18,280 bases of DNA from Fimbriiglobus sp. Lineage in GTDB: Bacteria > Planctomycetota > Planctomycetia > Gemmatales > Gemmataceae. The notes under the pieces were generated by a model. That model made no database searches and was not told the DNA's origin. It worked only from the letters and a program-made list of their open reading frames with translations. The stretch lies in the NCBI GenBank assembly GCA_025352585.1, contig JANXTD010000274.1, positions 1-18,280 on the forward strand, in the 5' to 3' direction. Of this stretch, positions 1-16,084 are shown one piece after another. A program made the translations under genes and the position numbers. Positions within the stretch are counted from its first letter, which is position 1. Each line of letters opens with the position of its first letter.

Positions 1-2769
1 AGTCGCGGCACCAACACCGTCACCGGCAGTTCGCTGGACCTCGTGGGGGGGACCGTGCCCGTCTCGGTGGACGCGGGGGCGCTGACGGTCGCCAGCCAGA
101 TCACGGGCACGCAGGGCTTCCGCAAACTGGGGCCGAGCACCCTCACGCTCACGTCGTCGGTCCCGAACACGTACGCGGGGGTGACGACGGTCGCCGACGG
201 CACCTTGGCGTTGGCCACGAGCACCGCCGACGCGGGGCTTTCCAGTACCATCGTCGTGGGCGACGGGGCGGGTGCGGTGTCGTCGGCGGTGCTGCGACTC
301 CAGGGGAGTCACGAGATCCCGGACCTGGCGTCGGTCACCGTGGACCGGGACGGCCTGGTCAACGTCGTCGCGGGGTCGGTCGAGGCGGTCACCGCCCTGA
401 CCCTCAACGCCGGGACCGTTTCGATCGCGGCCACCGCGAGCTTCGGCATCCTGAGCGGCGGCACGGTGACGACCGTCGAGGCCGCGACCGCCAGCACCAT
501 TTCGGGGCCGGGGACGCTGTCCCTCGCCGGCTCGCCGGTCGTGACGGTGCCCGACGGCGTGGCGGCCACGGACCTGCTCATCACCGCGGTCGTGGCGGAG
601 ACGACCCCCGACAGCGGCCTCGTCAAGGCGGGGGCCGGGACGCTCGAACTCGCGGGCGCGGTCTCCAACACCTACACCGGCACGACCACCGTGACCGACG
701 GCGTGCTCGCGCTCAACGGCGGCGGCGCGAACGGGGCCTTCGGGCTGCGCCTCGTCATCGGCGACGGCGTCAACGTCGCCGGGACCGCGATCGTGCGGCT
801 GCTGCGGGGCTTCGAGATCCCCAACACCGCCGCGGTCACCATCCGCTCCGACGGCCAACTCGACCTGAACGGCTTCCCGGAGGACTTGGGTCTCCTGACG
901 CTCGACGCCAACTCGGGCGTGGTGACCGGGGCCGGCACCTTGACGCTTCTGGGGGACGTAGTCGCCACCGGGGAGGGCGGCGGCGCGGGCGGCCCGGCGA
1001 CCTTGCGCGGGAACCTGGCGCTCGGCGCGGCGAGCCGCACGTTCACCGTGGCGGACGGCCCGTCGCCCTACGACCTCGCCGTCTTCGCCGTCGTGTCCGG
1101 CGGCGGCCTCGTCAAGTCGGGGCCGGGGCTGATGACCCTCACCGCGGCCAACACCTACACCGGCGCGACCGCCGTCGCCGCGGGCCTGCTGCAAATCGAC
1201 GGCCTCCAGCCGGGGAGCGCCGTGGCGCTGGCCGGCGGCGCGGTGGGCGGGGCCGGCACCGTCGGCGCGCTCACCGCGACGAGCGGCACCGTCGCCCCTG
1301 GGTCCTTCGTCGCCTCCGCCCCCGTGACCTTCAGTACCGGCAACCTGACCCTCGGGGCCGCGACCTACGAGCCGCTGCTCTCCGGCACCGCCGGCGGCCC
1401 GGCCGACAAGCTCGCCGTGACCGGCGCGGTCAACCTGACCGGGTCAACGCTGACCCCGCACCTGGTCGGCGCGGCGGTCGCCACGGCGCAGACGTTCGTC
1501 ATCCTGGCCAACGACGGCATCGACCCGATCGTCGGCACCTTCGCGGGGCTGGCCGAGGGGGCGACCCTCATGGCACGCGGCGAGGCGTTCACGATCAGCT
1601 ACGTGGCCGGCGACGGCAACGACGTGGCGATCACCCGGACGGCGGCCCCGGCCGTGCCCTTCGTGCCCGTCGTCCCCGCCGTGCCGGGAATCCCGCCGGC
1701 CGTGCCGGGCGTCCCGCCGGTGGTGCCGGGAGTCCCCGTGGTGCCGGGAGTCCCGCCGGTGGTGCCCGTGGTGCCGGGCGTCCCGCCGGCACCCCTGAGC
1801 GCTCCGCAGCTCGCGGTCGGCACCGACACCGGCACCACCGCCACGGCGACGCTGTACGCCGCCGACCAGTCGGTCCGCTTCGCGGTCACCCCCTTCGGCG
1901 ACTTCACCGGCGGCGTGCGCGTGGCGGCGGCGGACTTCAACGGCGACGGGGTTGCCGATCTCGTCGCCGGGACGGGGCCGGGCCGCGCCACGCAGGTCGT
2001 CGTCCTCGACGGCGCGACGCAGAAGGTACTCTTCACCATCGACCCGTTCGAGGCGGGCTTCACCGGCGGCGTCTACGTCACCGCGGGCGACCTCAACGGC
2101 GACGGCGTCGCCGACCTCGTGGTCACCCCCGACCAGGGCGGCGGGCCGCGCGTGCGGGCCTTCGCCGGCAACAAGTCGGGCAAGCCGTTCGGCCAACTCG
2201 CCGACTTCTTCGGCATCGACGACAAAGCCTTCCTCGGCGGGGCGCGGGCCGCCGTGGCCGACCTCAACGGCGACGGCGTCGGCGACCTGATCGTCTCCGC
2301 CGGGTTCGGCGGCGGGCCGCGCGTCGCCGGCTTCAACGGCCTGACCCTGGGGCAGCCGACCCCGCCCAAGCTCTTCGGCGACTTCCTCGCCTTCGAGGAG
2401 ACCCTCCGCAACGGGGCCTTCGTCGCCGCCGGCGACCTCGACGGCGACGGCTACGCCGAGTTGATCGCCGGCGGCGGCCCCGGCGGCGGCCCGCGCGTGA
2501 CCGCGTTCTCCGGCAAGCAGTTGCTCGCCAACCGACAAGTGCCGCTGGCCAACTTCTTCGCCGGCGACACCACTAGCCGCGGCGGCGTCCGGGTCGCGGC
2601 CAAGAACCTCGACGGCGACACCCGGGCCGACCTCGTGGTCGGCTCGGGCGGCGGGGTCGGCGCGCGCGTCACCGCGTACGCCGGCAAGTCGATCGGGTCC
2701 GCGACGCCGTCGGAGTTGTTCGCCTTGGAGACGCTCCCCGGCTTCACCGGAGGCGTCTTCGTCGGCTAA
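1..2769 (+). CDS. Large surface protein, 3' part: autotransporter-associated beta-strand repeats plus FG-GAP repeats
   Basis: The frame is open from base 1 with no upstream stop, so the gene begins outside the window and 922 residues are visible. At least three autotransporter-associated beta-strand (PATR-type) repeats can be read, each a lysine and G-x-G/T-x-L block followed by NTYxGxTxV...DGxLxL (about residues 42-71, 209-240 and 372-401). They are followed by the usual end of such a helix (residues about 500-545, including a GTFAGL..GA motif). A Pro/Val-rich linker (550-598) leads to five FG-GAP/VCBS-like repeats with DxNxDG or DxDGD calcium-loop motifs (from about 639). This architecture fits an exported adhesin or cell-surface beta-solenoid plus beta-propeller protein; the signal peptide would lie upstream. 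The protein stops eight residues into what looks like a sixth repeat (FTGGVFVG). I have the impression that this ending is common in Gemmataceae FG-GAP proteins. No enzymatic motif is visible, and the binding partner is unknown. Confidence 0.9.
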   Translation, partial: SRGTNTVTGSSLDLVGGTVPVSVDAGALTVASQITGTQGFRKLGPSTLTLTSSVPNTYAGVTTVADGTLALATSTADAGLSSTIVVGDGAGAVSSAVLRLQGSHEIPDLASVTVDRDGLVNVVAGSVEAVTALTLNAGTVSIAATASFGILSGGTVTTVEAATASTISGPGTLSLAGSPVVTVPDGVAATDLLITAVVAETTPDSGLVKAGAGTLELAGAVSNTYTGTTTVTDGVLALNGGGANGAFGLRLVIGDGVNVAGTAIVRLLRGFEIPNTAAVTIRSDGQLDLNGFPEDLGLLTLDANSGVVTGAGTLTLLGDVVATGEGGGAGGPATLRGNLALGAASRTFTVADGPSPYDLAVFAVVSGGGLVKSGPGLMTLTAANTYTGATAVAAGLLQIDGLQPGSAVALAGGAVGGAGTVGALTATSGTVAPGSFVASAPVTFSTGNLTLGAATYEPLLSGTAGGPADKLAVTGAVNLTGSTLTPHLVGAAVATAQTFVILANDGIDPIVGTFAGLAEGATLMARGEAFTISYVAGDGNDVAITRTAAPAVPFVPVVPAVPGIPPAVPGVPPVVPGVPVVPGVPPVVPVVPGVPPAPLSAPQLAVGTDTGTTATATLYAADQSVRFAVTPFGDFTGGVRVAAADFNGDGVADLVAGTGPGRATQVVVLDGATQKVLFTIDPFEAGFTGGVYVTAGDLNGDGVADLVVTPDQGGGPRVRAFAGNKSGKPFGQLADFFGIDDKAFLGGARAAVADLNGDGVGDLIVSAGFGGGPRVAGFNGLTLGQPTPPKLFGDFLAFEETLRNGAFVAAGDLDGDGYAELIAGGGPGGGPRVTAFSGKQLLANRQVPLANFFAGDTTSRGGVRVAAKNLDGDTRADLVVGSGGGVGARVTAYAGKSIGSATPSELFALETLPGFTGGVFVG
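1648..1794 (+). repeat. Tandem Pro/Val/Gly-rich linker repeat inside the surface protein
   Basis: In-frame degenerate repeats encode units such as VPGVPP and VVPGVP, built from the DNA words gtgccgggcgtcccgccg and gtggtgccgggagtc. The tract separates the beta-strand repeat region from the FG-GAP region and probably acts as a stiff spacer. Near-identical short units make it prone to copy-number change. Confidence 0.8.
1915..2766 (+). repeat. Five FG-GAP/VCBS-like protein repeats plus a partial sixth
   Basis: Repeats begin near 1915, 2071, 2242, 2416 and 2581, with a stub at about 2743. Each reads V/A-x-V/A-A-x-D-L/F-N/D-G-D-x-x-x-D/E-L-I/V, usually followed by GGGPRV and a short FxG strand. 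The DxNxDGxxD loops resemble those that bind calcium in integrin-type propellers. At the DNA level the repeats are similar but diverged, pointing to old internal duplication. Confidence 0.8.
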
Positions 2770-2877
2770 CCCGCGTCCGACCCACCGACCCGCGCCGCCG
2801 CGCCGCGTCCCCCGGACCCAGGGCGGCGGCGGCGGCGTGTGCGGGCGTACCGATTTCACAGACTTTGCGCGTCGGGT

Positions 2878-2895
2878 GCGGCACAAATCTTGCGT
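2878..2895 (+). promoter_or_regulatory. Sigma-54-type -24/-12 promoter upstream of the MRJP gene
   Basis: GGCACAAATCTTGC at 2880-2893 matches the RpoN pattern GGCAC-N5-TTGC, with exactly ten bases between GG (2880-2881) and GC (2892-2893). Predicted transcription start is near 2905, and the next start codon is at 2942. The same motif recurs before three more genes in the window. The promoter call is an inference from motif and position. Confidence 0.65.
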
Positions 2896-2941
2896 CACCT
2901 CCGAGCTTAGGGACGACCCCGACGCCACCGGAGACTGACTC

Positions 2942-4084
2942 ATGGGACCGCTCTTCCTCGCCGCCGCGTTGCTTTTGCAGCCGCCGCCCCCCGAACTCGC
3001 GCGGGAGCGGCCCGTCGGCAAGCTCGAAGTCGTGGCGACGTTCAGTGGGCCGATGCCGACGGGCGTGGCCGTGTCGAAGTCGGGCCGCGTCTTCGTCAAC
3101 TACCCGCGCTGGGGCGACGCGGTCACGTTCACCGTCGCCGAGGTCAAGGCCGGCGTCGCGACCGCCTACCCCGACGCTGCGTTGAGCGTTTACGACAAGG
3201 CGAAGCCGGCCGAGACGCTGGTCTCGGTGCAGAGTGTCGTCGTCGATGCGGCCGACCGGCTCTGGATGCTCGACACCGGGACCGTCGAGTTCGGCCCGGT
3301 TGTCCCCGGCGGCGCGAAGCTCGTCGGCGTCGATCTGGCGACCAACACGGTCGTGAAGTCGATCGCCGTCCCGGCCGACGTGGCGTTGCCGACGACGTAC
3401 CTCAACGACGTGCGCTTCGACCTGACCCGCGGCAAGGCCGGCACCGCTTACGTCACCGACTCCAGCACCGAGGGGCCGAACGCGGTCGTCGTCATCGACC
3501 TCGACAGCGGCAAGTGCCGGCGGCGGCTGCACGACCACCCGTCCACGAAGGCCGACAAGGGCTTCCTGCCGTTCGTCGAGGGCAAGCCGCTGCTCACCCG
3601 CAAGCAGAAGGACGGCCCGCGGCAGTCGATGAGCTTCGGGGCCGACGGGGTCGCCATCTCGCCCGACGGCAAGTTCCTGTACTACTGCCCGCTGTCGAGT
3701 CGCCGGCTGCACCGCGTGCCGACCGAGGCGCTGGCCGGGGCCGCGCCGGACGCCGAGGTCGGCAAGGCGGTCGAAGACTTGCCGGTGCGGCCGTTCGCCT
3801 CCGACGGCCTGGAGTCCGACGCCCAGGGCCGGCTCTACCTCACCGACTACGAGCACAACGCCGTCGTCCGCCGCGACCCGGACGGCACCTACACGACAAT
3901 CGCCCACGACCCGCGGATGCTCTGGCCCGACACGCTGTCACTGGCGGCCGACGGCTACCTCTACTTCACGGCCAACCAGCTCCACCGCCAGAAGCAGTTC
4001 CACGACTTCACTGACCAGCGCGAGAAGCCCTACGTGTTGTTTCGCGTCAAGGTCGATGGCACGCCGGTCGCGCCCCGGCCGTAA
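2942..4084 (+). CDS. MRJP/yellow-family (L-dopachrome tautomerase-related) beta-propeller protein
   Basis: The 380-aa protein starts at ATG 2942 behind GGAG (2930-2933, spacing 8). A short hydrophobic N-terminus (residues 2-12) suggests export. The body resembles the major royal jelly protein/yellow family: a PTGVAVSKSGRVFVNYPRW block, the S-V-x-x-V-V-D-x-x-x-R-L-W-x-L-D block near residue 105, YLNDVRFD, AYVTDSS, DGVAISPDGKFLYYCPL, and SDGLESDAQGRLYLTDYEHN near the C-terminus. Some of these also occur in SMP-30/gluconolactonase propellers, the main alternative. Bacterial members are usually of unknown substrate, and no catalytic residues can be assigned. It is followed after 36 bp by an alcohol dehydrogenase and then an esterase, probably as one transcript from the sigma-54-type promoter at 2880. 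Confidence 0.8.
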   Translation: MGPLFLAAALLLQPPPPELARERPVGKLEVVATFSGPMPTGVAVSKSGRVFVNYPRWGDAVTFTVAEVKAGVATAYPDAALSVYDKAKPAETLVSVQSVVVDAADRLWMLDTGTVEFGPVVPGGAKLVGVDLATNTVVKSIAVPADVALPTTYLNDVRFDLTRGKAGTAYVTDSSTEGPNAVVVIDLDSGKCRRRLHDHPSTKADKGFLPFVEGKPLLTRKQKDGPRQSMSFGADGVAISPDGKFLYYCPLSSRRLHRVPTEALAGAAPDAEVGKAVEDLPVRPFASDGLESDAQGRLYLTDYEHNAVVRRDPDGTYTTIAHDPRMLWPDTLSLAADGYLYFTANQLHRQKQFHDFTDQREKPYVLFRVKVDGTPVAPRP

Positions 4085-4120
4085 CCCCAAGTTGATTCCC
4101 CTTTGACCCGGAGTATTTCG

Positions 4121-5293
4121 ATGAAGGCTTTGTGTTGGCACGGCAAGGGCGACGTTCGGGTGGACACGGTGCCCGACCCCAAGATCTTCGACCCGCGCGA
4201 CGCGATCGTGAAGGTCACCTCGACGGCGATCTGCGGCAGCGACCTGCACCTCTTCGACGGCTACATGCCGACGATGGAGTCGGGCGACATCCTCGGCCAC
4301 GAGTTCATGGGCGAGGTCGTCGAGACCGGCAAGGCGATCACGAACTTGAAGAAGGGCGACCGCGTCGTCGTGCCGTTCACGATGGCCTGCGGCAGTTGCT
4401 TCTTCTGCCAGAAGACGCTGTACTCGTGCTGCGACAACTCGAACCCGAACGCCAAGGTCGCCGAGGAGGCGATGGGCCACTCGCCCTCGGGGATGTTCGG
4501 CTACTCGCACATGATGGGCGGCTTCTCCGGCGGCCAGGCCGAGTTCGTCCGCGTGCCGTTCGCCGACGTGGGCGGCTGCAAAGTCCCCGACGGCGTGCCC
4601 GACGAGAAGGTGCTGTTCTTGAGTGACATCTTCCCCACCGGCTACATGGCCGCGGAGAACTGCGGCATCGAGCCGGGCGACACGGTCGCCGTCTGGGGCT
4701 GCGGCCCCGTCGGCCAGTTCGCGATCCGCAGCGCGTGGATGCTGGGGGCCGGCCGCGTCATCGCGATTGACCGCGTGCCGGAGCGCCTCAAGCTGGCGCG
4801 GGAGTACGGCAAGGCGGAGACGATCGACTTCTCGAAGAAGGCCGTCTTCGACGAGTTGCAGGAGATGACCAAGAACCGCGGCCCGGACCGCTGCATCGAC
4901 GCGGTCGGCGCGGAGGCCCACGGCGGCGACAGCCTCGGCGCGGTCGTGGACGCGGTGAAGACGACCATCGGCCTGGCGACCGACCGGCCGACGGCGCTGC
5001 GCCAGGCGATCATCGCCTGCCGCAAGGCGGGCACGGTGTCGATCCCCGGCGTCTACGTCGGCCTGCTCGACAAGGTGCCGATGGGCGCGGCGATGAACAA
5101 GGGCCTGACCCTGAAGATGGGCCAGACCCACGTCCACCGCTACCTCAAGCCGCTGCTGGAGCGCATCCTGAAGGGCGAGATCGACCCGTCGGGCGTGATC
5201 ACGCACCGCGCCAAGCTGGCCGACGCCCCGGCGCTGTACAAGACCTTCCGCGACAAGAAGGACGGCTGCATCAAGGTCGTCCTGACCCCGTGA
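4121..5293 (+). CDS. Zinc-dependent alcohol dehydrogenase, formaldehyde dehydrogenase-like
   Basis: This is a 390-aa medium-chain dehydrogenase. ATG 4121 is chosen over an upstream TTG because GGAG (4110-4113) lies 7 nt before it and [14 protein letters not shown] is the family's typical beginning. Catalytic zinc ligands are visible as C38 (AICGSD) and H60/E61 (GHEF). The structural zinc site is C90, C93, C96 and C104. The Rossmann motif WGCGPVG spans 192-198, and D217 after the second strand indicates NAD preference. It strongly resembles the FDH_like_1 subgroup, related to formaldehyde dehydrogenase, but the true substrate cannot be read from sequence. There is no signal peptide, so it is cytoplasmic. 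It sits 36 bp after the MRJP gene and 29 bp before the esterase, which suggests an operon. Confidence 0.92.
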
Positions 5294-5322
5294 CCGACCC
5301 CGACACCCCCAGGATTCCCACC

Positions 5323-6375
5323 ATGACCCGCTCGACACTCGCCCGCCTGGCCCTCGCCGCGGGCCTGACGTTCGCCGCCGCCCTTCCCGGCCGCGCCGAC
5401 GACAAGATGACCGGCAAGCCCGACGCGCAGATGCAGGCGGTCCTCGACCAGCTCGCGGCGCTCGGCGGCAAGCCGATCCCGCAATGCACGCCGCAGGAGG
5501 CCCGCCAGCAGCCGACGCCAGCGGACGCCGTCAAGGCACTGTTGAAAAAGCAGGGCAAGAGTGCCGCGCCCGAAGCCGTCGGCTCCGTCAAGGACTTGAC
5601 GTATCCCGCCGCGGCGGGCAACCAGCCGGCGCGCGTCTACACGCCCAAGGGCGACGGCCCGTTCCCCGTGCTCGCGTACTGGCACGGCGGCGGCTGGGTC
5701 ATCGCCGACCTCGACACCTACGACTCGTCGTGCCGCGCCTTGTGCAACGCCGCGGGCTGTGTGGTGGTGTCGCTAGAGTACCGGCACGCCCCGGAGTTCC
5801 CGTTCCCGGCCGCCGCGGACGACGCCTTCGCCGGCTACCAGTTCGTGCTCAAGAACGCCGCGGCGATGAACGGCGACCCCAAGAAGGTCGCCGTCGCCGG
5901 CGAGAGCGCCGGCGGCAACCTCGCGGCCGTGACGGCCATTCGCGCGCGCGACAAGGGGTTGCAACTGCCGCTGGCCCAAGTGCTGATCTACCCGGTGACG
6001 AACAACAACCTCGACACGCCGTCGTACGTCAAGAACGCCGACGCGAAGCCGCTGAACAAGCCGATGATGAAGTGGTTCTTCGCGCACTCCGTCGGCAACC
6101 AGCCGAGCGCCGCGATGAACCCCGTCGCCTTCCCGATGCAGGCCAAGAGCCTGGCCAAGTTACCCCCGGCGACGATCCTCAACGCCGAGATCGACCCGCT
6201 GCTCGACGACGGCGTGCTGTACGCCGCGAAGCTCAAGGCGGCCGGCGTGGCCGTGACGCAGCGGACGTTCCCCGGCGTGGCGCACGAGTTCTTCGGCATG
6301 GGCGCGGTGGTGGACAAGTCGAAGGAGGCGGTCAAGGTCGCCGCCGACGCGCTGAAGGCGGCGTACGGGAAGTAG
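5323..6375 (+). CDS. Secreted alpha/beta hydrolase (acetyl esterase/HSL family)
   Basis: The 350-aa protein has an N-terminal signal peptide (hydrophobic core about residues 5-21, probable cleavage after GRA near 25). ATG 5323 is preferred because AGGA (5311-5314) precedes it and the signal peptide starts there; an in-frame GTG at 5290 overlaps the previous stop codon. The oxyanion motif HGGG is at 121-124 and the nucleophile elbow GESAGG contains S195. D291 (EIDPLLDDG) and H321 (AHEFF) complete the triad. These are hallmarks of the Abhydrolase_3/hormone-sensitive lipase family, which hydrolyses short-chain acyl esters. The substrate is unknown. It is probably the last gene of the three-gene unit, as a strong hairpin follows the stop codon. 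Confidence 0.92.
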   Translation: MTRSTLARLALAAGLTFAAALPGRADDKMTGKPDAQMQAVLDQLAALGGKPIPQCTPQEARQQPTPADAVKALLKKQGKSAAPEAVGSVKDLTYPAAAGNQPARVYTPKGDGPFPVLAYWHGGGWVIADLDTYDSSCRALCNAAGCVVVSLEYRHAPEFPFPAAADDAFAGYQFVLKNAAAMNGDPKKVAVAGESAGGNLAAVTAIRARDKGLQLPLAQVLIYPVTNNNLDTPSYVKNADAKPLNKPMMKWFFAHSVGNQPSAAMNPVAFPMQAKSLAKLPPATILNAEIDPLLDDGVLYAAKLKAAGVAVTQRTFPGVAHEFFGMGAVVDKSKEAVKVAADALKAAYGK

Positions 6376-6382
6376 AGCGACT

Positions 6383-6416
6383 GGCGGGTCGTCCGCGTGG
6401 GCGCGGGCGACCCGCC
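6383..6416 (+). terminator. Strong hairpin after the esterase gene
   Basis: Arms at 6383-6397 and 6402-6416 pair over 15 bp (one G-U wobble) around the loop TGGG, starting 7 nt after the stop codon. No T-run follows, so it is either a hairpin-only terminator or an RNA-end stabiliser. The next sigma-54-type promoter begins about 15 nt downstream. Confidence 0.65.
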
Positions 6417-6429
6417 CTCGCGCGGCGCT

Positions 6430-6447
6430 CCGGCACGGCGATTGCGA
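6430..6447 (+). promoter_or_regulatory. Sigma-54-type -24/-12 promoter upstream of the DUF4142 gene
   Basis: GGCACGGCGATTGC at 6432-6445 is GGCAC-N5-TTGC with exact GG-N10-GC spacing, and matches the longer consensus GGCACG-N4-TTGC. The start codon lies 55 nt downstream of the -12 element. It sits between the upstream hairpin and the gene, as expected for an independent promoter. Confidence 0.7.
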
Positions 6448-6500
6448 CGCCCAGACCCGCCGCACGACCGGCACCCCTGCACACCTTTGAGGACTCACCT

Positions 6501-7043
6501 ATGATTCGCTCCCCCCGCGCCGCCTTCGGCGTCGCCGCCCTGCTTTGCGGCTTCGCGATGGTCGCCACCGCCCAGGACAAGAAGGCCCCGAAGGGCGACA
6601 AGGATTTCGACGACGCCGAGTTCGTGATGAAGGCCTCCGAGGGCGGCTTGTACGAAGTCCAGGTCCACACGCTCGCCACCAAGATGGCCAAGAGTGAGGA
6701 CGTGAAGAAGCACGCGACGATGATGCTGAAGGACCACACCAAGCTCAACGCCGAGATGAAGAAGGTCGCCAGCGCCGGCGGCCTGAAGGTCGCCACCAAG
6801 ATCGACGCCAAGCACGCCAAGACCCTCGAAACCCTCAAGGCCCTGAAGGGGGCGGCGTTCGACAAGGCGTACCTCGACGACCAACTCGAGGACCACGAGG
6901 CGGACATCAAGGAGTTCACGGCGGCCAGCGAGATGGCCAAGGCCCCGGCCCTGAAGGCGTTGGCGACCAAGGCGTTGCCGACGCTCAAGGAGCACCTCGA
7001 CATGGTCAAGAAGGCCCAGGACGAGAAGGGCGACAAGAAGTAG
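6501..7043 (+). CDS. DUF4142 (ferritin-like four-helix) exported protein
   Basis: The 180-aa protein starts at ATG 6501 with GAGG (6489-6492) at 8 nt spacing. The reading frame stays open far upstream only because of high GC. The signal peptide covers residues 1 to about 25 (hydrophobic core GVAALLCGFAMVATA), giving a periplasmic or envelope location. The mature part matches the DUF4142 pattern: FVMKASEGGLYEVQVHTLAT, an alpha-helical KKHATMMLKDHTKLN segment, then a FDKAYLDDQLEDHEADI helix and a final PTLKEHLDM helix. The family has a ferritin-like bundle with conserved His/Glu positions, but its biochemical role is not established. The C-terminus is Lys-rich. In many bacteria DUF4142 genes lie near manganese catalases and other general stress genes, as here. 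It has its own putative sigma-54 promoter and terminator. Confidence 0.9.
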   Translation: MIRSPRAAFGVAALLCGFAMVATAQDKKAPKGDKDFDDAEFVMKASEGGLYEVQVHTLATKMAKSEDVKKHATMMLKDHTKLNAEMKKVASAGGLKVATKIDAKHAKTLETLKALKGAAFDKAYLDDQLEDHEADIKEFTAASEMAKAPALKALATKALPTLKEHLDMVKKAQDEKGDKK

Positions 7044-7062
7044 TTGTCGGTGTCCACTGAGA

Positions 7063-7105
7063 GCCGGGACGCGCGCCGACCGCGCGCCCCGGCTTCTCCA
7101 TTTCT
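7063..7105 (+). terminator. Intrinsic terminator after the DUF4142 gene
   Basis: A 13-bp GC stem (7063-7075 with 7081-7093, one A-C mismatch) has the 5-nt loop CCGAC and is followed by the pyrimidine-rich tail TTCTCCATTTCT. It begins 20 nt after the stop codon and separates this gene from the 82-aa gene. Confidence 0.75.
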
Positions 7106-7189
7106 GGGGGTCGCCCGCGGCCGACACGCGGCGGCAAGCACAAGCCCATTTTCACGCACCGGAACGACCAACTTTTTCGAGGACGCCCC

Positions 7190-7438
7190 ATGCCGTACAC
7201 GATTGACCAAGACCCGCGGAACAGCGACGAGGGCAAGGAACTGCCGGCGACCCCCTACGGCCCGCACCCCCGCGGCACCGACGCGGCGGCCGGCGGCGCG
7301 GACAGTTCGCCACTGGACACCGAGCCGACCGGCGAGGAGCGTCTTGCAATGGCCGAGGCCGAAAAGCGTGCCCGCGAGAAGCGCGGCAACCCCGACGGCC
7401 CGGTGACGCGAACGACGAACCCCAAGGCCGAGCAGTAG
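7190..7438 (+). CDS. Small hydrophilic protein of unknown function (82 aa)
   Basis: ATG 7190 is preceded by GAGG (7179-7182, spacing 7), which supports real translation. The 82-residue product is rich in Pro, Gly, Ala, Asp/Glu, Arg and Lys. It has no signal peptide, membrane segment or cysteine. The centre (GTDAAAGGADSSPLD) looks disordered, and a short charged helix (EERLAMAEAEKRAREKR) spans about residues 48-64. I do not recognise a family. Its place between DUF4142 and Ser-rich stress-type genes suggests a related role, but this is guilt by association. No sigma-54-type motif was found in the 145 bp upstream, unlike the neighbouring genes, so its promoter is unidentified. Confidence 0.7.
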   Translation: MPYTIDQDPRNSDEGKELPATPYGPHPRGTDAAAGGADSSPLDTEPTGEERLAMAEAEKRAREKRGNPDGPVTRTTNPKAEQ

Positions 7439-7444
7439 CCGCTT

Positions 7445-7462
7445 TTGGCACACCCATTGCAC
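7445..7462 (+). promoter_or_regulatory. Sigma-54-type -24/-12 promoter upstream of the Ser-rich protein gene
   Basis: TTTTGGCACACCCATTGCA (7443-7461) contains GGCAC-N5-TTGC with GG at 7447-7448 and GC at 7459-7460. It is the best match in the window because T and A flank the -24 and -12 elements as in the consensus. It lies 7 nt after the stop of the 82-aa gene and 68 nt before the next start codon. Confidence 0.75.
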
Positions 7463-7528
7463 AGATGTCCACCGCCGCTAAGTGGCGGACGGACTTTCCC
7501 AGTGACCAGTCGAATTAGGAGTTTCAGC

Positions 7529-8062
7529 ATGGCGAGCAACAGTTCCTCCCGCGCCAACAAGGACGACGACGACGAGGGCATGATGGCGACGGCGACCTCG
7601 GGTCGGGGCCGCGGGCAGTCGACTTCGGACGACGAAGGCGAGTCGGGTTCGTCGAGCGGCAAGGGCGGCGGCCGCACGGGCAGCCAGGGCAGCAAGTCGG
7701 CCAGCCAGGGGGGCAACGGCACCCAAGCCGGCACGTCCCAGGCGGGCGGCTCACCGGGCGGCGGGGTTCAAAGCGGGGCCGCCCAGAAGCGCCTCATGAC
7801 GCGGGCCGTCCGGGTACTCAATGAAATCGAGACCCGCATCCACGAACTGCGCGAGGAACTCGAGCAGCAGCAGCACGGCGGCACGCAGTCGTCCACGACC
7901 GGGAGCAACGGGAGCAGCCAATCCCGCTCGTCGTCGAGCAAGTCGTCGCGCTCGTCGTCGGCCGACGACGACGAGGAGGGTGACGAGGAGACCGGCCACG
8001 TCAAGGGGGCCGTGAAGCACCCCGAAACCGACCGCCGCTTGAAGGCCAACCGCGACGACTAG
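7529..8062 (+). CDS. Ser/Gly/Asp-rich low-complexity protein of unknown function, hydrophilin-like
   Basis: Start ATG 7529 follows AGGAG with 7-nt spacing; an in-frame TTG at 7445 lies inside the -24 promoter element and is rejected. The 177-aa product is highly hydrophilic and mostly low complexity. An acidic/Ser N-terminus (four Asp in a row near residue 12) leads into Gly/Ser/Gln-rich stretches to about residue 84. A predicted helical coiled-coil segment follows (about 85-115, RLMTRAVRVLNEIETRIHEL), then a second Ser-rich tract and an Asp/Glu-rich run. The C-terminus is basic and polar (HPETDRRLKANRDD). There is no signal peptide or membrane segment. The composition resembles hydrophilins or desiccation-linked disordered proteins, but no family is recognised. 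The sigma-54-type promoter and catalase neighbour support a stress role by inference. Confidence 0.8.
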   Translation: MASNSSSRANKDDDDEGMMATATSGRGRGQSTSDDEGESGSSSGKGGGRTGSQGSKSASQGGNGTQAGTSQAGGSPGGGVQSGAAQKRLMTRAVRVLNEIETRIHELREELEQQQHGGTQSSTTGSNGSSQSRSSSSKSSRSSSADDDEEGDEETGHVKGAVKHPETDRRLKANRDD

Positions 8063-8083
8063 CTCGCGCCCCCGTGAAAAACG

Positions 8084-8131
8084 CCGCGGCCCGCCGAAAC
8101 CTCTCGGCGGGCCGCGGTCGTTGGGTTTCTT
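8084..8131 (+). terminator. Intrinsic terminator after the Ser-rich protein gene
   Basis: A perfect 14-bp stem (8084-8097 with 8104-8117) closes the 6-nt loop AACCTC. It is preceded by GAAAAACG and followed by the T-rich stretch TCGTTGGGTTTCTT. It lies 21 nt after the stop codon and upstream of the catalase promoter. Confidence 0.85.
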
Positions 8132-8172
8132 CGACGGGGGGTCACTCGCGGCGCGGCCTTCGCGCCACCGCG

Positions 8173-8188
8173 TGGCCTGACACTTGCA
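8173..8188 (+). promoter_or_regulatory. Sigma-54-type -24/-12 promoter upstream of the manganese catalase gene
   Basis: TGGCCTGACACTTGCA has GG at 8174-8175, ten bases, then GC at 8186-8187, with TGGC and TTGCA cores intact. It departs from the other three only at the CAC of the -24 box. The start codon is 46 nt downstream of the -12 element. A small inverted repeat (GGCGCG-N5-CGCGCC, 8150-8166) sits just upstream; it may be incidental. Confidence 0.6.
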
Positions 8189-8233
8189 CCGAAAATTCAC
8201 GCTCAATTCGAGCGACACCCCAGGAGTTTGCGA

Positions 8234-9118
8234 ATGATTCTGCGCATGGACCGCCTCCAGACCGAGTTGCCGAAGCCGAAGAACCCCTCGGCCAACGACG
8301 CCGCGGCGATCCAGGAACTGCTCGGCGGCAAGTTCGGCGAGATGTCGACGTTGATGAACTACACCTTCCAGTCGTTCAACTTCCGCGGCCGAAGCCAACT
8401 GCGACCCTTCTACGACCTGATCGCCAACATCGCCACCGAGGAGTACGGCCACATCGAGTTGGTGTCGTATTGCATTAACATGCTGCTGACGGGCGTGACC
8501 AAGCGCGACCCGAACCCCGTCAGCGGCCCCCTCGCCGACGCGGCCAACTTCCGCAACAGCTACCACACCCTCGCCAGCGGCCAGCAGGCGCTGCCGACGG
8601 ACTCGATGGGCAACTACTGGAACGGCAGTTTCGTGTACAGCAGCGGCAACCTGAAGGCCGACCTGCTGCACAACTTCTTCCTGGAGTGCGGGGCGCGGGC
8701 CAACAAGATCCGCGCCTACGAGATGGTGACCGACCCCTGCGCCCGCGCGATGGTGGGCTACCTCTTGGTGCGCGGCGGCGTCCACATCGTGGCCTACGCC
8801 AAGGCGCTCGAGAAGCTGACCGGCGTCGATGTCGGCAAGCTGTTGCCGATCCCGGACATCAGCAACAAGAAGTTCCCCGAGGCCAAGGCCCACGAGGACG
8901 CCGGCCTGCACCTGAAGCTGTACCAGTTCAGCACCGAGGACTACGGCACGGCCGGCAAGATCTGGAACGGCCCGCACCCCGAGGACGGCCAGGAGTGCAA
9001 GTTCGAGCCGCTGCCGGAGGGTTACGGCGCGCCGGTGCCGGACCTGGAGCCGGAGCCGCAACTGAATTCGCCGCTCGACCCGGCGATGATCGCCGACATC
9101 TTGAAGAAGATGCAATAA
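8234..9118 (+). CDS. Manganese catalase family protein
   Basis: ATG 8234 is chosen because AGGAG (8222-8226) lies 7 nt upstream; the in-frame TTG at 8228 is too close to it. The 294-aa length is normal for non-heme dimanganese catalases (KatN/PF05067), which convert hydrogen peroxide to water and oxygen in the cytoplasm. The five expected metal ligands are present with correct spacing: E36, E70, H73, E151 (LECGAR) and H184 (GGVHIVAY). A typical C-terminal part (YQFSTEDYGTAGKIWNGPHPEDG) follows. No truncation is seen. It has its own promoter-like element and is isolated from the upstream gene by a terminator, so it is probably monocistronic. The family and likely activity are secure; in vivo substrate range is not known. 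Confidence 0.95.
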   Translation: MILRMDRLQTELPKPKNPSANDAAAIQELLGGKFGEMSTLMNYTFQSFNFRGRSQLRPFYDLIANIATEEYGHIELVSYCINMLLTGVTKRDPNPVSGPLADAANFRNSYHTLASGQQALPTDSMGNYWNGSFVYSSGNLKADLLHNFFLECGARANKIRAYEMVTDPCARAMVGYLLVRGGVHIVAYAKALEKLTGVDVGKLLPIPDISNKKFPEAKAHEDAGLHLKLYQFSTEDYGTAGKIWNGPHPEDGQECKFEPLPEGYGAPVPDLEPEPQLNSPLDPAMIADILKKMQ

Positions 9119-9141
9119 GTCGTCCGCCGCGCCGACTCGGG

Positions 9142-9171
9142 TTGGCAAGCGGCGGGCCGGGGGCTTACACT
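9142..9171 (+). promoter_or_regulatory. Sigma-70-like promoter for endonuclease IV
   Basis: TTGGCA (9142-9147) and TACACT (9166-9171) are separated by 18 bases and resemble -35 and -10 boxes, giving a start near 9178, about 24 nt before the gene. An inverted repeat GGGCCGG/CCGGCCC (9154-9160, 9173-9179) overlaps it and could be the catalase terminator or an operator. Both calls are weak in DNA this GC-rich. Confidence 0.35.
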
Positions 9172-9201
9172 GCCGGCCCCTGACCCGCGAGACCCGCCGC
9201 G

Positions 9202-10059
9202 ATGCCGCCGTTCGGTGCCCACTTCTCGATCGCCGGCGGCCTGTCGAAGGCCGCGGAGACCTGCCGCGAACTCGGCTGCGCGACCTTCCAGCTCTTCACG
9301 AAGAGCGCCGCCCAGTGGGCCGCCAAGCCGCTCACGTCCGACGACGTGCGCGACTTCCGCGCCGCGGTCAAGCGGGCCAACGCGGAGTCGGTCACCGCCC
9401 ACGACTCGTACCTCATCAACCTCGCGGCGAAGGACGACGCGCTGTTCGCCAAGAGCGTCGAGGCCTTCGCCGTCGAGATCGAGCGGGCGGAAGCCCTCGG
9501 CATCGACTACCTCGTGATGCACCCCGGCGCGCACGTCGGCAGCGGCGAGGAGTACGGCCTGGCCCGCGTCATTCACGGCATCGACCTGGCCCACGCCCGC
9601 TGTCCGGGGTACGCCGTGCGCGTGCTGGTCGAGGCGACCGCCGGCCAGGGTACGACGCTGGGCCACCGCTTCGAGCACCTCGCCACCATCCTCAACGGCG
9701 TCGCCCAATCGGAACGGTTGGGGGTCTGCCTCGACACCTGCCACGTCTTCGCCGCCGGCTACGACCTGCGCACGCCCGAGACCTACGCCGCGACGATGGC
9801 CGAGTTCGACGCCGTCGTGGGGCTGGCACGCCTGAAGGTGGTCCACGTCAACGACAGCGTGAAGCCGCTGGGCAGCCGCGTCGATCGCCACGCCGGCCTG
9901 GGCCTGGGTCACATCGGCGAGGAGGCGTTCCGCTGCCTGGCGACCGACCCGCGGCTCACCAAGGTGCCGTTAATCCTCGAAACGCCCAAGGAGGACGCCG
10001 ACGGCAACGCGATGGACCCGATCAACCTGGCGAAGCTCCGCGGCTACGCCCCGGCGTGA
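9202..10059 (+). CDS. nfo: Deoxyribonuclease IV (AP endonuclease, endonuclease IV)
   Basis: This 285-aa TIM-barrel enzyme cleaves DNA 5' to abasic sites in base-excision repair. All nine metal ligands expected for the trinuclear zinc site are seen at the family's spacing: H67, H107 (MHPGAH), E144 (EATAGQG), D178 and H181 (LDTCH), H215 (HVNDS), D228 and H230 (DRH), and E260 (LETPKE). Start ATG 9202 gives the standard length and the beginning GAHFSIAGGL. No clear Shine-Dalgarno precedes it. The last 16 bp overlap the 3' end of the convergent glycosyltransferase gene. It probably has its own sigma-70-type promoter rather than sharing the upstream stress promoters. Confidence 0.96.
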   Translation: MPPFGAHFSIAGGLSKAAETCRELGCATFQLFTKSAAQWAAKPLTSDDVRDFRAAVKRANAESVTAHDSYLINLAAKDDALFAKSVEAFAVEIERAEALGIDYLVMHPGAHVGSGEEYGLARVIHGIDLAHARCPGYAVRVLVEATAGQGTTLGHRFEHLATILNGVAQSERLGVCLDTCHVFAAGYDLRTPETYAATMAEFDAVVGLARLKVVHVNDSVKPLGSRVDRHAGLGLGHIGEEAFRCLATDPRLTKVPLILETPKEDADGNAMDPINLAKLRGYAPA

Positions 10060-16011: not shown

Positions 16012-16084
16012 TGGACGCGGAGGGACTCGAACCCCCGACCTCGGCTGTGTAAAAGCCGCACTCTAACCGCTGAGTTACGCGTCC
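16012..16084 (-). tRNA. tRNA-Val (anticodon UAC)
   Basis: On the minus strand a complete 73-nt cloverleaf can be drawn. It has a 7-bp acceptor (GGACGCG/CGCGTCC), D arm ACTC-AGCGGTTA-GAGT, anticodon arm CGGCT-TTTACAC-AGCCG with anticodon TAC, a 5-nt variable loop, T arm with TTCGAGT loop, and discriminator A. The CCA end is not encoded. It lies 17 bp downstream of the sulfatase gene on the same strand, and its 3' end faces the low-GC islet. Confidence 0.95.

Follow-up and report, generated by a model that had tools for sequence, protein, structure and literature searches.

We analysed an 18,280-nucleotide stretch of DNA from Fimbriiglobus sp. (Gemmataceae), called the window below. It forms contig C758 of a metagenome-assembled genome of 4.82 Mb, which is 87% complete and divided into 964 contigs. 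On its forward strand lie genes for an MRJP/SMP-30-like protein (2942..4084; PF03022, E 1.1e-33), a zinc alcohol dehydrogenase (ADH; 4121..5293; PF08240 and PF00107), an alpha/beta-hydrolase esterase (Abhydrolase_3; 5323..6375; PF07859, E 5.8e-66), a DUF4142 protein (6501..7043; PF13628, E 2.6e-38), an 82-aa hydrophilic protein with no Pfam or NCBIfam family (7190..7438), a 177-aa hydrophilin-like protein (7529..8062) and a manganese (Mn) catalase (8234..9118; PF05067, E 2.1e-72). Four sequences resembling promoters for sigma-54 (RpoN) stand among these genes, and they are the subject of this work.

The consensus of sigma-54 promoters reads TGGCAC/TTGC. Its two elements are placed at -24 and -12 (PMC12316311). 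A first-pass annotation of the window had reported GG-N10-GC sequences with a TTGC box in four intergenic regions, and all four were located there on the + strand: GGCAC AAATC TTGC at 2880..2893 (promoter 1, ahead of the MRJP, ADH and esterase genes), GGCAC GGCGA TTGC at 6432..6445 (promoter 2, ahead of DUF4142), T GGCAC ACCCA TTGC A at 7447..7460 (promoter 3, nearest to the consensus among the four) and the weaker GGCCTGACACTTGC at 8174..8187 (promoter 4, ahead of the Mn catalase). All four were intergenic by the gene caller, and in 4/4 the GG at -24 and the GC at -12 are exactly 10 bases apart. Their distances to the ATG codons at 2942, 6501, 7529 and 8234 are 48, 55, 68 and 46 nucleotides (nt), respectively, and the three that carry the exact GGCAC-N5-TTGC pattern (2880, 6432 and 7447) match the 48-68 nt claimed for them earlier. 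Only 7447 among these three has a T preceding the GG. The site at 8174 keeps GGC and TTGC and loses the AC, and because its -24 box reads GGCCT instead of GGCAC we call promoter 4 probable only. By the rule we assume for such promoters, transcription from promoter 1 would start near 2905.

The exact pattern occurs three times in the window, against a mean of 0.18 in dinucleotide shuffles, of which 1 in 200 reached three copies. Since the genome itself holds 37 copies, 0.14 would be expected in the window, and the probability of at least three is about 4e-4 for this pattern, chosen once the sites were known; the earlier remark that three exact sites are hard to explain by chance was thus borne out. 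Bare GG-N10-GC was rejected as evidence (487 in the window versus 461 expected), and GG-N8-TTGC occurred 24 times: 15 copies were coding, and the nine intergenic ones include the four reported sites. When the best site within 200 nt upstream of each gene was compared with 1000 first-order Markov resamplings, p was 0.002 for 2880, 0/1000 for both 6432 and 7447 and 0.057 for 8174; five other genes of the window gave values of 0.32-0.95, and neither the esterase gene nor the 82-aa gene at 7190 had a sigma-54 site of its own in this test. The ADH gene also scored 0/1000, with a possible extra site, GGCACGCCGGTCGC (4058..4071, + strand), which lies 49 nt upstream of the ADH ATG, in the 3'-terminal part of the MRJP gene. 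This match may be a coding coincidence, and its counterpart in the same-genus genome G001, 125 nt upstream of the ADH gene there, could reflect protein conservation. Sigma-70 promoters, sought in 2700-9250, were rejected as candidates, with two weak matches only, one at 9142 and one at 6478 that overlaps the start of DUF4142.

The sites recur ahead of homologous genes in related genomes. A search for the DUF4142 family matched 26 of 95 genomes (44 match rows), and all 30 loci taken from it were examined. With the own locus included, 20/30 had a site that deviated by no more than one mismatch and kept GG and GC, at 27-100 nt, and 10 of these were exact. As a control, a 400-kb sample of the same-genus genome G002 was used, whose 204 leader genes yielded two sites with one mismatch, none exact and none at 30-90 nt (20/30 versus 2/204, Fisher 1e-19, the loci not being independent), and a second control, in loci taken for distant MRJP/SGL matches, gave 0 of 25 leader genes with a site. 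The Mn-catalase survey covered 80 loci, counting one G001 fusion that was itself excluded from the site counts: 8 or 9 of 9 matches were present in 5/6 Gemmataceae/Isosphaera loci, in 3/16 other non-Bacteroidota loci and in 2/57 of the remainder, mostly Bacteroidota. The earlier reading of 8174 as a promoter, weak by itself, is supported by this comparison. For DUF3309, again including the own locus, 7 of 26 loci had a site, four of them exact. In G001 the MRJP orthologue carries TGGCACGATGTTTGCC 50 nt ahead of its ATG, aligned with promoter 1; there the MRJP gene is on one contig and the DUF4142 promoter on another, with the site kept at each, and the AI-2E and DUF3309 promoters likewise keep sites. 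The check for conservation in related Gemmataceae that the first-pass annotation had proposed came out in its favour, the motif being found ahead of homologous genes and hardly before the G002 leader genes. As the gene caller was trained on the window genes and made few or no calls in some lower-GC loci (G003, G017 and G082), the placement counts for these are lower bounds.

Several further observations were made in these loci. One of the three site-bearing non-Bacteroidota catalase loci (L233), from Verrucomicrobia bacterium LW23, has the exact site TGGCACAGCTATTGCT 47 nt upstream of the Mn catalase start, and because of it the sigma-54 wiring of Mn catalase may reach beyond planctomycetes. 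In the excluded G001 gene (L096:9046-9864, - strand), some 40 N-terminal residues of the DUF4142 protein are joined in frame to the Mn catalase, which sets in at about its residue 57; this is either a deletion or an artefact of assembly. As in the window, neighbours of DUF4142 or Mn catalase often have sites of their own in L138, L145, L149, L179, L180, L328 and L333, among them genes for SDR, SRPBCC/YgaP, a single-domain response regulator and DUF892 as well as unnamed genes.

The spacing within the motif was examined in 79 loci from other genomes (509 kb), picked by homology. With N5 there were 38 sites, of which 34 were intergenic, 17 were placed 25-100 nt ahead of a start and two were wrongly oriented, whereas N3, N4, N6 and N7 gave 3, 1, 5 and 7 sites and the reversed pattern 11, none of them 25-100 nt upstream of a start. 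Because the loci were chosen for stress genes, this comparison speaks to spacing and placement, not to genome-wide density. The longer TGGCAC-N5-TTGCA was counted in 37 Gemmataceae genomes, which held 148 copies versus 73 of the reversed form.

Elsewhere in the own genome, 20 of the 34 further exact sites are intergenic; 15 of these are no more than 300 nt upstream of a same-strand start, and for 10 the distance is 30-90 nt (hand count), compared with 11, 4 and 1 of the 23 reversed-pattern control sites. The Fisher p values for the two distance classes are 0.047 and 0.037, and for this reason the test is weak taken alone; the enrichment upstream of starts, proposed as a test at first pass, is present, but modest. 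Ten genes downstream of such sites were scanned for families: they encode a YflT heat-induced stress protein, DUF3309, YgaP-TM/SRPBCC, an AI-2E transporter, pentapeptide repeats, a Rieske protein, an outer-membrane efflux protein and an ArsR-type regulator, and two have no family. Stress-type families are prominent among the site-bearing genes, but they are not alone. Here we presume a stress role for most of the families concerned (DUF4142, Mn catalase, YflT, DUF3309, DUF2383 and YtxH-like). What had been described as a compact stress regulon thus does contain stress-type families, but the set is scattered over the genome and does not consist solely of stress genes.

The machinery that such promoters would need is encoded in the same genome. 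It has one rpoN gene (TIGR02395, 399 bits, above the cut-off), whose product carries near its C-terminus the sequence ARRTVTKYR, which we take to be the RpoN box, and 13 PF00158 matches for enhancer-binding proteins, nine of them strong. Six of these nine contain GAFTGA, and the other three GSFTGA, GAFTSA and NAFTGA. Both components had been named at first pass as things to look for, and their presence supports the RpoN reading. A pattern search of the window and of loci L096-L107 and L137-L180 recovered three enhancer-binding proteins, each adjoining DUF4142, in the genomes G114, G115 and G116. When these were compared with ten own-genome proteins (the nine strong ones and L092), the best match was a protein of contig C109 (L083/L322), at 56-57% over 373-386 residues for the pieces first called and 51% over 461 residues for the fuller G116 regulator. 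The C109 protein combines a receiver (PF00072), an AAA+ domain (PF00158) and a Fis-type helix-turn-helix (PF02954), all above cut-off, and its loop reads GSFTGA. Its gene is divergent from one for a CHASE3-PAS histidine kinase, and it is followed by genes for a YtxH-like protein (below the Pfam cut-off), DUF2383 and DUF1328, which are preceded at 71, 57 and 169 nt, respectively, by sites with one mismatch. The cluster around the G116 regulator comprises SRPBCC/YgaP (with an exact site), ADH, DUF4142, SDR, DUF892 and DJ-1/PfpI genes. Both neighbourhoods indicate the same regulator.

Taking these results together, we consider it very probable that the sites are RpoN-dependent -24/-12 promoters (8174 probably so) of a dispersed Gemmataceae stress regulon for which the C109 protein is the predicted activator. 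The sequences directly provide the placement of the sites, their recurrence in many, not all, relatives, their exact spacing, and the presence of rpoN and enhancer-binding proteins; from these, the three exact sites and, probably, 8174 are read as promoters for RNA polymerase with sigma-54. DUF4142, Mn catalase, YflT, DUF3309 and DUF2383 would then share one predicted promoter type, and the putative regulon is best read as DUF4142, Mn catalase, YflT, DUF3309, YtxH-like, DUF2383, SRPBCC/YgaP-TM, the AI-2E transporter and the MRJP/ADH/esterase genes.

A number of results weigh against this interpretation. In the own genome the excess of 37 sites over 23 of the reversed pattern is small (p 0.09) and the intergenic share (20/34 versus 11/23) is not clearly above the control, and in G002 TGGCAC-N5-TTGCA falls under its control (4 versus 7). 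One alternative is chance matches in a GC-rich genome, noticed by an annotator familiar with the consensus; the post hoc choice of the motif, the 23 reversed copies in the genome and the p of 0.057 at 8174 speak for it. We nevertheless regard chance as extremely improbable, as it is largely contradicted by the recurrence ahead of homologous genes, by the dependence on spacing and by the G002 leader-gene control. That recurrence is itself incomplete: no good site lies within 200 nt in 10/30 DUF4142 loci (L140, among these ten, shows a site with a single mismatch at 204 nt) or in 19/26 DUF3309 loci, and among distant Mn-catalase homologues those of G053 and G046 lack a good site and that of G012 has its site no nearer than 108 nt. 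A conserved element read by another factor, for example a planctomycete extracytoplasmic function (ECF) sigma factor or a repressor, is very unlikely, because GG and GC set precisely 10 bases apart in TGGCAC/TTGC make up the sigma-54 consensus and rpoN is present. In its favour, Rhodopirellula baltica has 37 ECF sigma genes, some of them stress-induced (PMC2754498). A further point against the preferred reading is that rpoN of this species fell at high salinity and showed no regulation in heat shock, while ECF sigma factors rose (PMC2754498).

The remaining alternative accepts the sigma-54 promoters and has them served by several activators rather than forming one regulon, the stress theme arising partly from the neighbourhood and the families examined. 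We hold it to be doubtful, yet a serious contender. The genome has nine strong enhancer-binding proteins, several of its sites precede genes without a clear stress role (the Rieske, efflux and ArsR-type genes above), and no enhancer motif convincingly above shuffles was found with 4-mer dyads (47 promoters), k-mers or expectation-maximisation (EM; 19 promoters, three of them from outside the named set and 16 from within it). In EM the real set scored slightly above all six shuffles in each of four runs; the best 16-base motif was not accepted, as it probably stems from homologous coding sequence upstream of the two AI-2E genes. What speaks for a common activator is that members of the C109 regulator family stand next to site-bearing stress-type genes in G114-G116 as well as in the own genome, but the former three genomes are of one genus and the regulator-DUF4142 neighbourhood there perhaps reflects a single event.

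Under the preferred reading, one stress regulon controlled through RpoN, sigma-54 holoenzyme would stay bound in closed form on the predicted promoters until an activator acts. This would be an NtrC-type protein, most likely the C109 REC-AAA+-Fis protein, which the divergent CHASE3-PAS kinase would phosphorylate under stress; the activator, bound at its targets, would open the complexes with ATP, and the whole set would be switched on together. Because RpoN-type signals also stand before genes of these kinds in many relatives, these bacteria probably turn on stress protection by a route other than that of Escherichia coli or Bacillus. We tentatively extend this, with confidence slightly short of even, to the proposal that sigma-54 with one CHASE3 kinase and one NtrC-type activator may serve Gemmataceae as a general stress sigma factor, the set elsewhere under RpoS, EcfG or SigB having moved to ATP-driven, all-or-none promoters.

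As to the remaining features of the window, the ADH is nearest to glutathione-independent formaldehyde dehydrogenase, with a TIGR02819 score (202.9 bits) far under the cut-off of 637. The 177-aa protein, hydrophilin-like by composition (16.4% Gly, GRAVY -1.33) and without a family, had no match in 58 relatives (1/59 genomes, its own) and four in a set of 5.8 billion proteins; the two matches inspected both share a VLNEIETR-HELREEL segment with it. Between its gene and the catalase lies a 15-pair terminator-like hairpin (8083..8118, both strands), consistent with a separate promoter for the catalase. Positions 1-2769 encode a protein that has passenger-associated (PATR) as well as FG-GAP repeats and is truncated where the contig begins, and a tRNA-Val (tac) lies at 16012-16084 (- strand).

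General stress responses are usually ascribed to sigma-70-family factors (RpoS, SigB, EcfG), and the EcfG/PhyR response of Alphaproteobacteria involves similar small stress-gene families. It relies on an ECF sigma factor and partner switching, unlike the sigma-54 control proposed here. We take COG3652, COG3546, COG3685, COG5487 and COG0628 to be DUF4142, Mn catalase, DUF892 (presumably YciF-like), DUF1328 and AI-2E, respectively; DUF892 genes lie near DUF4142 in G116, G062 and G077. For the Planctomycetia, the class of the present genome, Carrera-Reyna et al. (2025) predicted that sigma-54 governs stress-related groups (UspA, MscS, chaperones and proteases); in contrast to the present gene set, those five COGs do not occur in the main text, and neither a dedicated activator nor a cluster like the present one was found in the part consulted (PMC12316311). 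Sigma-54 control of stress genes had thus already been predicted for planctomycetes. A sigma-54 promoter for the R. baltica thioredoxin RB10378 was reportedly proposed by Studholme and Dixon in 2004. That proposal is cited in the study of the R. baltica stress response, in which the Mn catalase RB10727 belongs to the common response and is induced by heat, cold and salt (PMC2754498). This planctomycete resembles the present case in its Mn catalase and in RpoN being proposed for a stress gene, but it belongs to another family, its rpoN was not induced, and the authors emphasise ECF factors and two-component systems (PMC2754498).

Outside the planctomycetes, the sigma-54 regulome of Desulfovibrio vulgaris includes a response-regulator activator, DVU3305, with targets labelled general stress response, and DVU3220 carries GSFTGA, as does the C109 regulator; that system differs in phylum and in its small target set, and 'catalase' and 'DUF' are absent from the main text (PMC4641369). 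Campylobacter jejuni relies on RpoN instead of RpoS, and in Burkholderia thailandensis a DUF4142 gene is up in stationary phase, not tied to RpoN in the text seen (PMC12322963). Our literature search returned no title or displayed abstract linking sigma-54 to DUF4142 or Mn catalase. A broad sigma-54 stress response, if true, would be tight when off, would need ATP and an activator, and would couple stress protection to two-component signalling; planctomycetes would gain, by name, a sigma factor and a candidate activator, along with a list of target genes open to test in culturable Gemmata or Fimbriiglobus strains. The enterobacterial katN, in an operon like yciGFE-katN, likewise places an Mn catalase within stress genes, but under RpoS and OxyR, where we propose sigma-54 with an ATP-driven activator (PMC5363993). 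Sigma-54 control of stress genes is thus known or predicted elsewhere, and the new part is the present gene set together with its candidate two-component activator.

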